NCBI GenBank assembly: GCA_005889405.1
Contig: VBFY01000009.1
Coordinates: 1-38,029, forward strand
Length of the DNA: 38,029 bases
Direction: 5' to 3'
Origin: Chloroflexota bacterium
GTDB lineage: Bacteria; Chloroflexota; Limnocylindria; P2-11E
Part shown: one piece after another, positions 21,185-23,937 of the stretch
Layout: the number at the start of each line of letters is the position of its first letter
How positions within the stretch are numbered: position 1 is the stretch's first letter
The notes under the pieces: model-generated
Databases searched by the model: none
What the model was told of the DNA's origin: nothing
Seen by the model: only the letters and a program-made list of their open reading frames with translations
Position numbers and translations under genes: made by a program

Positions 21185-21190
21185 TAGACT
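21185..21190 (+). promoter_or_regulatory. -10-like TAGACT upstream of the alaS leader
   Basis: TAGACT starts four bases after the YtxH stop and is identical to the hexamer before the cysteine desulfurase gene. It would start a transcript near 21197, which would run first into the hairpin at 21209 and then alaS, giving a leader of about 80 bases. No good -35 sequence is visible. Chance occurrence is possible, since TANNNT is a loose pattern. Confidence 0.35.
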
Positions 21191-21208
21191 CAAGTTCAGG
21201 GCCGGGGA

Positions 21209-21249
21209 ACGCGGGGAGCTGACCGTTGGGTCGCCCCGCGTTTGTTTTT
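21209..21249 (+). terminator. Intrinsic terminator (or attenuator) hairpin between the YtxH gene and alaS
   Basis: A perfect eight-base-pair stem, ACGCGGGG (21209-21216) with CCCCGCGT (21234-21241), encloses an inner four-pair stem GACC (21221-21224) with GGTC (21229-21232) and a GTTG loop. It is followed directly by the T-rich run TTTGTTTTT. This is the clearest Rho-independent terminator in the window. It could end the upstream operon, but because the only candidate alaS promoter lies before it, it could also act as a leader attenuator for alaS. No T-box-like anticodon or specifier loop is recognisable in the short leader. Confidence 0.85.
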
Positions 21250-21265: not shown

Positions 21266-21282
21266 GGGAGTAGGGGTCAATA
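21266..21282 (+). promoter_or_regulatory. Shine-Dalgarno and probable ATA initiation codon of alaS
   Basis: GGGAG (21266-21270) is spaced nine bases from ATA at 21280; a second purine patch AGGGG (21272-21276) lies closer. The alaS frame is closed by TAG at 21271 and contains no ATG, GTG or TTG between there and 21343, yet conserved AlaRS residues begin by 21289. ATA is therefore the most likely initiator unless the assembly carries an ATG-to-ATA base error. Confidence 0.5.
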
Positions 21283-23937
21283 GAGAGCGCCGAGATCCGA
21301 GAGCGGTTCATCAAGTTCTTCGAGGAGAAGGGCCATACGCGTATGCCCAGCTGGCCACTCATCCTGAAGGACGACCCCAGCGTGCTCTTCACCAGCGCCG
21401 GCATGCAACCGCTCGTGCCCTACTTCCTCGGCAAGAAGCAGCCCCCGGCCAAGCGCATCGTCGCGGTGCAGAAGGTCTTTCGCGCGACGGACATCGAGGA
21501 GGTCGGTCGGGACGGCTACCACCAGACCTTCTGGGAGATGCTGGGGAACTTCGGCATCGGCGACTACTGGAAGAAGGAAGCCATCGAGTGGGGCTGGGAG
21601 CTGCTCACGAAGGTGTTCGGCGTCGACGGCGCCAAGCTCGTCGCGACCGTCCATCACACCGATGAGGAGGCGTACCAGATCTGGACAAAAACGCTCGCGC
21701 TCCTTCCACCGGACAAGGTCTTCCGTCTCGGTGACGAGGCCAACTTCTGGGCGCCCGGGCCGACGGGACTCTGCGGGCCCGATAGCGAGGTCTTCATCGA
21801 CAAGGGTCCGCAGCCGGGGGTAGGGGCGCACGACTGCAACCCCGGCGAGAACTGCGGCCGCTACGTCGAGATCTGGAACTTCGTTTTCCAGCAGTACGAC
21901 CGCAAGGCCGACGGGACGCTCGTGCCGCTCGCGAAGAAGAACATCGACACCGGCGCGGGCCTCGAGCGGATCACCCAGGTGCTGCAGGGCGTTCCGGGCG
22001 ACGTCTACCGTACCGATCTCTTCCAACCCCTAGTGAGGAAGATCGAATCACTCTCGGGGAAGAAGTACGGCGCCGAGGGCGACACGGATCTGTCGATCCG
22101 CATCGTCGCCGAGCACTCGCGCGCCGCGACGTTCCTTATCGCCGACGGCGTCGTCCCGTCCAATGAATTCCGCGGATATGTTCTTCGCCGACTGATCCGC
22201 CGCGCGGCGTTGCACGGTCGACGACTCGGCCTCAAGACCGGCGTCCTCGCGACGCTTGGCGGCGAGGTCGTGAAGACGATGCAGAAGCACTACCACGAGC
22301 TCACCAAGGGGCGCGATCGGATCACGCAGGTGATCTCCGACGAAGAGGAGAAGTTCGAGAAAACGCTCGCGAACGGTCTGACCATGTTGAACGAGGCGAT
22401 CGCGCGCGCGAAGGCCGAGGGTCAGACCTGGATCGACAGCGACACGGCCTTCAGGCTGTCCGACACCTATGGCTTCCCGCTGGAGATGACCAAGGAGATC
22501 GCCGCGAGCTCCGGCTTGAAGGTGGACGAGCGCGGTTTTGCCGAGCTTCTGGAGGGACAGCGCAGCCGCAGCCGCGCCACCGCGAAGTTCACGCAGGACG
22601 CGATGCGTTTCGGCCAGTTCTACTCGGGGCTCCGCGAAACCCAGGGTCTCCGCAGCCAGTTCACCGGATACGACGAGCTCGCGACGGACGCGATGATCGT
22701 GTCGCTCGTCGTCGGCGGCTCGCGGGTCGAGGCCGCGCACGAAGGCCAGGACGTCGAGATCGTGCTGGACCGCACGCCGTTCTATCCGGAAGGCGGCGGT
22801 CAGGTCGGCGATCGAGGCACGATCACGACGGACGAGGGACGCGCGATGGTCGCGGACACCCAGACGGCAGCGCCGGGCGTGATCGTGATGAGCGCGAAGG
22901 TCGTCGACGGCGTGCTGCGCGTGTCAGCCCAGGCGCGCGCCGCGGTCGACGAGGAGCTACGCCGCGACACGATGCGCAACCACACCGCCACTCATCTGCT
23001 GCACGCGACGCTGCGGAATCTCTTCGGCGAGGACGTGCATCAAGCCGGTTCCCTCGTGCACGCCCCGAACCTGCGATTCGACTTCACGTTTGACCGCGCG
23101 CTCACGCCGCAGGAATTGCAGCGCGTCGAGGACGAGGTGAATCGCGCGATCCTCGACAACGCGAGCGTTCACGCGCGCGTGATGCCCCTGAGCGAAGCGC
23201 TCGCGACCGGCGCGATGGCGCTCTTCGGCGAGAAGTACGACGACGAGGTCCGCGTGATCGAGGCCGGCCCCAGCCGCGAGCTCTGCGGTGGCACGCACTG
23301 TCACTGCACCGGTGATATCGGACCGTTCCTCGTCACGAAAGAGGAGAGCATCGGAGCCGGCGTGCGGCGCATCGAAGCCGTCACCGGCGTCGGCGCGCTG
23401 CGCGAGATGCGGGAGGTGCGCGATCGGCTCTCACGCGCCGCGGCCGCGTTACGCGTACCGCCCGCTCGCGTGCCTGAGAGCGTCGGGCAGCTCATCGAAT
23501 CGCGAGAGCGTCTGGAAAAGGAGCTCGCCACGCTGCAGCGCAGCGGCGTCGACAGCGTGGCCGCCACGCTGCTGGCAAAGGCGGAGCTCGTTGGGAACGC
23601 CAAGCTCGTCGCGGCCGATGTCGGGGACGGGGACGTCAATCAGCTTCGCGCGCTGTCGGATCGGATCCGCGAGACGATTGGCTCTGGCGTCGTGGTGCTG
23701 GGAGCGAGGCGCAACGGAACCGCCGCGCTCGTCGTGAACGTAACGAAGGACCTGTCGGCGCGGGTGAACGCCGACGCGCTCGTGAAGGTGCTCGCGCGCA
23801 TCGTCGATGGAAGGGGTGGCGGCCGCCCGGAGAGCGCGACGGGCGGCGGAAAAGACCCCTCCCGGCTGGCGGAGATGCTCGAGACGGCACGGGAAACGGT
23901 GCGCGAGCGTTTGGACGGGGGACGTGACCGCCGCTAG
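21280..23937 (+). CDS. alaS: Alanyl-tRNA synthetase
   Basis: A class II synthetase of about 885 residues that charges tRNA-Ala and edits mischarged Ser/Gly. The N-terminal core has the conserved AEIRERFIKFFEEKGH start, LFTSAGMQPLVPYFLG, FRATDIEEVG and the GPDSEVF region; the editing domain has zinc-ligand motifs HTATH (His568, His572) and CGGTH (Cys669, His673); a DHHA1/C-Ala domain ends the protein. The first plain ATG (21343) would remove the conserved first 21 residues including motif-1 elements, so I place the start at ATA 21280. Transcription reaching it probably passes the hairpin at 21209. Its last 14 bases overlap the next gene. Confidence 0.95.
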   Translation: MESAEIRERFIKFFEEKGHTRMPSWPLILKDDPSVLFTSAGMQPLVPYFLGKKQPPAKRIVAVQKVFRATDIEEVGRDGYHQTFWEMLGNFGIGDYWKKEAIEWGWELLTKVFGVDGAKLVATVHHTDEEAYQIWTKTLALLPPDKVFRLGDEANFWAPGPTGLCGPDSEVFIDKGPQPGVGAHDCNPGENCGRYVEIWNFVFQQYDRKADGTLVPLAKKNIDTGAGLERITQVLQGVPGDVYRTDLFQPLVRKIESLSGKKYGAEGDTDLSIRIVAEHSRAATFLIADGVVPSNEFRGYVLRRLIRRAALHGRRLGLKTGVLATLGGEVVKTMQKHYHELTKGRDRITQVISDEEEKFEKTLANGLTMLNEAIARAKAEGQTWIDSDTAFRLSDTYGFPLEMTKEIAASSGLKVDERGFAELLEGQRSRSRATAKFTQDAMRFGQFYSGLRETQGLRSQFTGYDELATDAMIVSLVVGGSRVEAAHEGQDVEIVLDRTPFYPEGGGQVGDRGTITTDEGRAMVADTQTAAPGVIVMSAKVVDGVLRVSAQARAAVDEELRRDTMRNHTATHLLHATLRNLFGEDVHQAGSLVHAPNLRFDFTFDRALTPQELQRVEDEVNRAILDNASVHARVMPLSEALATGAMALFGEKYDDEVRVIEAGPSRELCGGTHCHCTGDIGPFLVTKEESIGAGVRRIEAVTGVGALREMREVRDRLSRAAAALRVPPARVPESVGQLIESRERLEKELATLQRSGVDSVAATLLAKAELVGNAKLVAADVGDGDVNQLRALSDRIRETIGSGVVVLGARRNGTAALVVNVTKDLSARVNADALVKVLARIVDGRGGGRPESATGGGKDPSRLAEMLETARETVRERLDGGRDRR

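Follow-up and report, generated by a model that had tools for sequence, protein, structure and literature searches.

A conserved non-canonical start codon of alaS in a family of uncultured Chloroflexota, and its possible role in limiting alanyl-tRNA synthetase

The alaS locus and its ATA codon

The window, that is the whole stretch of 38,029 nucleotides analysed, carries the single alaS gene of a 3.05 Mb Chloroflexota metagenome-assembled genome, preceded by a leader whose features are listed in Table 1. The encoded protein is an alanine--tRNA ligase (AlaRS): it scores 855 bits with TIGR00344, whose cut-off is 457, and its residues 5-857 cover profile positions 1-847. Read in the alaS frame, the sequence runs from GGGAG (21266-21270) through TAG (21271), GGG TCA and ATA (21280) to GAG AGC GCC GAG ATC CGA, and the first in-frame ATG, GTG or TTG is ATG 21343. 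A preliminary description made from the sequence alone had given the same N-terminus and positions, which we recovered on re-reading, and had proposed that the gene starts at the ATA.

Table 1. Features of the alaS locus (positions in the window)
Feature	Position	Strand	Remarks
Putative -10 element TAGACT, alaS promoter	21185..21190	+	TANNNT upstream of hairpin; inference
alaS leader hairpin, GGGGAACGCGGGG...CCCCGCG then U-rich tail, terminator-like	21204..21249	+	pattern unique to alaS in 17/28 genomes
Shine-Dalgarno region GGGAGTAGGGG	21266..21276	+	5 of 6 to AGGAGG, spacing 5
In-frame TAG stop	21271..21273	+	bars in-frame start upstream; same TAG at -3 in L003, L011
ATA start codon of alaS	21280..21282	+	aligned codon non-canonical in 19/26 family genomes; conserved protein directly after
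alaS, alanine--tRNA ligase, 885 aa	21280..23937	+	TIGR00344; Pfam tRNA-synt_2c, tRNA_SAD, DHHA1

Residues 3-21 of the ATA-started protein are conserved AlaRS sequence, the alignment to solved AlaRS structures begins at query residue 2-3, and the Pfam catalytic domain (tRNA-synt_2c) is aligned from its profile position 1. A start at ATG 21343 would remove profile positions 1-18 of this domain. Position 1 of TIGR00344 falls on residue 5, and such a start would delete conserved core, just as the preliminary description had argued.

Non-canonical alaS starts across the family

We searched 28 genomes of the family, which consists of uncultured Chloroflexota from soil and groundwater, and found an intact alaS 5' end in 26 of them. 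The aligned start codon is non-canonical in 19 (CTG in six, ATA in five, ATC in four, ACG in two, GTA and GTC in one each) and canonical in the remaining seven (ATG in six, GTG in one). For 14 of the 19 non-canonical genes, there is no in-frame ATG, GTG or TTG from the upstream stop to the conserved N-terminus, so that alaS shares with genes of the infC and sigR kind a conserved non-canonical codon without a usable canonical alternative. Each of the six codons is one base from ATG or GTG, GTA and GTC being two positions away from ATG. Relatives with a clear ATG or GTG at this codon, which the preliminary description had singled out as evidence against an ATA start, belong only to other genera (g3, g5 and g7); there are none among the close relatives.

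These data bear directly on three ways in which the ATA might be misleading. First, for the window taken alone, one A/G difference is enough to suppose that an ATG was read as ATA, a caveat already raised in the preliminary description. However, 18 relatives are also non-canonical at this position, mostly with other codons, and because they come from independent assemblies a base-call or assembly error is rejected as a general explanation; its probability is close to nil. Secondly, translation could begin further upstream, either out of frame and followed by a frameshift or through coupling with an ORF in the leader. In-frame ATG, GTG or TTG codons do occur 3-46 codons upstream in five non-canonical relatives (at -3 in L016, -7 in L009, -13 in L014, -32 in L010 and -46 in L002). 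Most of these are implausibly far, although an upstream start could be used in L009 and L016, where the candidate is ATG. On the other hand, the upstream in-frame stop is just 3-5 codons away in eight non-canonical genomes, the window among them, where TAG 21271 excludes an upstream in-frame start, and no reading frame conserved between genomes was seen upstream, which leaves this explanation very improbable. Thirdly, AlaRS might start at ATG 21343 and lack its first 21 residues, this being the first canonical codon and the one that automatic annotation would probably pick. Yet codons 2-21 are conserved and belong to the family core (pN/pS of 0.30 among the 19 non-canonical genes, with synonymous changes dominating, and 0.15 for codons 23-60), the codon aligned with ATG 21343 is CTG in six of 19 relatives, and the first canonical codon lies only at residue 42 in L015 and L018. 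Conservation and the relatives devoid of that ATG rule out the internal start as a candidate, and we regard it as scarcely tenable.

The observation is thus real, conserved across the family and not an artefact, and it is very likely that alaS starts at ATA 21280, a proposal strongly supported by the non-canonical aligned codon of the 18 relatives. Among the 19 non-canonical genes, codon 1 switches among Leu, Ile, Thr and Val codons, a pattern that fits an initiator presumably always decoded as fMet.

Outside the family, we also read the alaS start in 20 genomes that belong to the same order or class. In all but one (19/20), an ATG, GTG or TTG is found either at the start itself or in frame at most 16 codons upstream; alaS starts outside the family are thus ordinary, and the non-canonical start characterises only a part of this family. 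The exception, L147 (G076), shows an apparent one-base frame break in the alaS N-terminal region, probably an assembly error. On the protein tree, the canonical/non-canonical character needs three changes, and the codon itself at least nine changes among the non-canonical genes. In a clade of 15 genomes, there is no return to ATG, GTG or TTG, although ATA to ATG is a single transition. When free drift between near-start codons was simulated, this clade had a 7-26% chance of containing no canonical codon if the number of changes was close to that observed. Active avoidance of ATG is therefore suggested, but not statistically proven by this pattern itself.

A leader hairpin and a strong Shine-Dalgarno sequence accompany the non-canonical starts

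A leader hairpin followed by a U-rich tail precedes alaS in 18 of the 19 non-canonical genes (counting the shortened form of L019), versus none of the seven canonical ones. In a strict exact-pattern search of the 28 family genomes, it was found once per genome in 17, always just upstream of alaS, while the reversed control pattern had no match in the same genomes. With its stem of about 11-12 pairs and its U-rich tail the hairpin resembles a terminator, but the consensus scan did not call it. Across genomes the outer stem hardly varies, its two G.U pairs included, and offers no compensatory changes by which to judge covariation; the inner stem varies between genera and still folds. The distance from the end of the U-run to the alaS start codon varies among genomes, from about 20 to 137 nt. 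Variable G+C-rich palindromes lie between the hairpin and the Shine-Dalgarno (SD) sequence, as if they were inserted repeats, in L002, L003, L004, L006, L009, L010, L014 and L015.

Searched against Rfam, the leader gave no sign of a known riboswitch or T-box: that of the window stayed without a match even at E values as high as 5, and those of L005, L011 and L018 gave nothing at gathering score. Upstream of the hairpin, a TANNNT hexamer (TAGACT, TATTCT, TACAAT, TATCCT or TATGCT) is found 12-21 nt away in all 18 hairpin genomes and is a putative -10 element, as judged from this recurrent position; no promoter came out of a scan with the sigma-70 consensus, and taken by itself the hexamer shows no enrichment in the window. 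The hairpin could act in transcription attenuation, in mRNA stabilization or in the binding of a factor.

Compared with AGGAGG, the SD sequence scores 5-6 of 6 in 16 of the 19 non-canonical genes (6 of 6 in eleven relatives), versus 2-4 of 6 in the canonical ones; a strong SD sequence at normal spacing is the second property shared with genes of the infC and sigR kind. The exceptions are L002 and L018 (4 of 6) and L017 (2 of 6), the latter having neither the hairpin nor a clear SD sequence. Several of the ATG-start alaS genes are possibly leaderless.

AUA initiation and the initiator tRNA

In 20 of 21 family genomes, that of the window among them (G000:C25, near 14756), ATA is the start codon of infC, the gene for initiation factor IF3. 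AUA initiation is thereby established for this lineage, through homology to the infC case already known. L111 is the infC exception, with a TTG-started extension (L111-L131 and L123 compared). An unusual initiator tRNA is ruled out as the source of the alaS starts, because the initiator tRNA found is ordinary, with a CAU anticodon and the usual GGG:CCC anticodon stem.

Weak initiation as a probable brake on AlaRS synthesis

Together, the start codon and its leader suggest that AlaRS output is deliberately throttled by a non-standard start. The explanation we favour, and consider probable, is that translation of alaS begins at weak codons, against which IF3 presumably discriminates, with a strong SD sequence compensating in part and AlaRS fixed at a low level. 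The strong SD sequence would draw the 30S subunit to the alaS start, where initiator fMet-tRNA would read ATA 21280 as methionine. The mismatched codon-anticodon pair would make initiation inefficient and expose it to rejection by IF3. AlaRS would thus be made at a low rate, rising when IF3 is scarce, as with infC. Across the family, the codon has moved between triplets that each differ by one base from a canonical start, yet it has stayed non-canonical, from which we infer selection to keep the start functional but weak, the SD sequence acting as counterweight. The hairpin would be a second probable control on alaS, in its simplest form partial transcription termination.

The main rival to IF3-type throttling is compensatory drift without regulation. 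A strong SD sequence in the leader would have made AUG dispensable and let it decay to any adequate near-start codon, the weak codon offsetting the strong SD sequence and responding to nothing. Free drift of codon identity on the tree, the weak SD sequences (2-4 of 6) of canonical-start relatives and a simulation that does not reject drift among near-start codons are all consistent with it. However, the 15-genome clade has never gone back to ATG, GTG or TTG, one transition away for ATA, and infC keeps ATA in the same genomes, which indicates that weak starts are retained here. We consider this drift unlikely, while taking it seriously.

Returning to throttling by a weak start, the preliminary description had suggested two consequences of the ATA: that it could hold AlaRS synthesis low, or make it self-regulated. 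Neither the variation of the codon within the family nor the leader hairpin specific to alaS figured in that description. The former consequence, through weak IF3-sensitive initiation, is plausible and has precedents in infC and sigR. The start codon itself lends no support to self-regulation, because the regulator would be IF3 and not AlaRS. Self-regulation could enter through the leader instead, in a two-layer homeostatic device where binding of AlaRS or another factor to the hairpin would govern read-through or translation, and where the weak start would make the remaining translation responsive to IF3 and to initiation capacity. AlaRS recognises the G3.U70 pair of tRNA-Ala, and G.U pairs that hardly vary are present close to the end of the hairpin's basal helix. 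We nevertheless hold such a device to be distinctly unlikely. Were it real, alaS would be an aminoacyl-tRNA synthetase gene tuned by IF3 and possibly self-sensing.

Very few characterised bacterial genes have conserved non-canonical starts, infC and sigR being documented cases, and none of the literature searched describes such a start for an essential aminoacyl-tRNA synthetase gene. If weak initiation is the correct reading, IF3-type start-codon control would reach tRNA charging, and a non-canonical start could drift over six codons yet remain weak. Automatic annotation would then probably truncate AlaRS in this family. In addition, the alaS leader provides a specific RNA open to direct laboratory testing.

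Comparison with known systems

The infC gene of E. coli is autoregulated via its non-canonical AUU start. Like infC, alaS is an essential translation gene with a near-cognate start, and it occurs in a family whose own infC starts at ATA. However, the product of infC is the discriminating factor itself, which AlaRS is not, and infC keeps ATA in nearly all family genomes whereas alaS uses six non-canonical codons.

The closest worked example is sigR of Streptomyces, which IF3 represses; its start codon is GTC in 32 of 34 species and GTT in the remaining two, and a conserved AGGAGGTG site precedes it (PMC5472188). Both genes combine a clade-conserved non-canonical start with a strong conserved ribosome-binding site, and both have ATG in other genera of the phylum. 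In contrast, sigR encodes a sigma factor and has an almost fixed codon, while alaS encodes an essential synthetase and has a drifting codon and a leader hairpin; moreover, repression by IF3 is demonstrated for sigR and proposed by analogy for alaS. In E. coli, a CTG start yields 0.86% of the output of ATG (PMC11497404). By analogy with sigR and with this CTG start, alaS initiation is expected to be inefficient, IF3-discriminated and partly compensated by the SD sequence.

Two other AlaRS systems offer partial parallels. Fungal AlaRS genes use near-cognate starts for dual localization, and share with the present case near-cognate translation and a repeated exchange of weak AUG and near-cognate starts; however, the second fungal start makes another isoform, whereas here the weak start would be the sole one (PMC7049704). 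Similarly, alaS of Streptomyces lividans has an Ala-rich leader-peptide attenuator, alaL, with a terminator-like structure in the leader as here (PMC8079986). Unlike alaL, the alaS leader examined here shows no Ala-rich leader peptide, and its hairpin lies just 12-21 nt from the putative -10 element.

Non-canonical starts elsewhere in the genome

We compared 184 ORF pairs with the same-genus genome G014, a control covering part of the genome, with final calls judged by hand. Clear absence of a canonical start from both genomes was limited to alaS, infC and one glycosyltransferase. Since non-canonical starts are this rare, alaS belongs to a small group, and genome-wide loose start-codon use is unsupported. 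The glycosyltransferase, of the dolichyl-phosphate type (G000:C50, about 118.2-119.0 kb), has an apparent CTG start both here and in G014, and is translationally coupled, its start lying directly after the upstream stop. At L212 (G000:C21, 16133-17068, minus strand), ATA stands at the codon aligned to a GTG start in G014. Viral contigs gave one distant match and nothing more. Finally, ARAGORN reported a selenocysteine tRNA gene at L199 (G000:C48, 5457-5552, minus strand).
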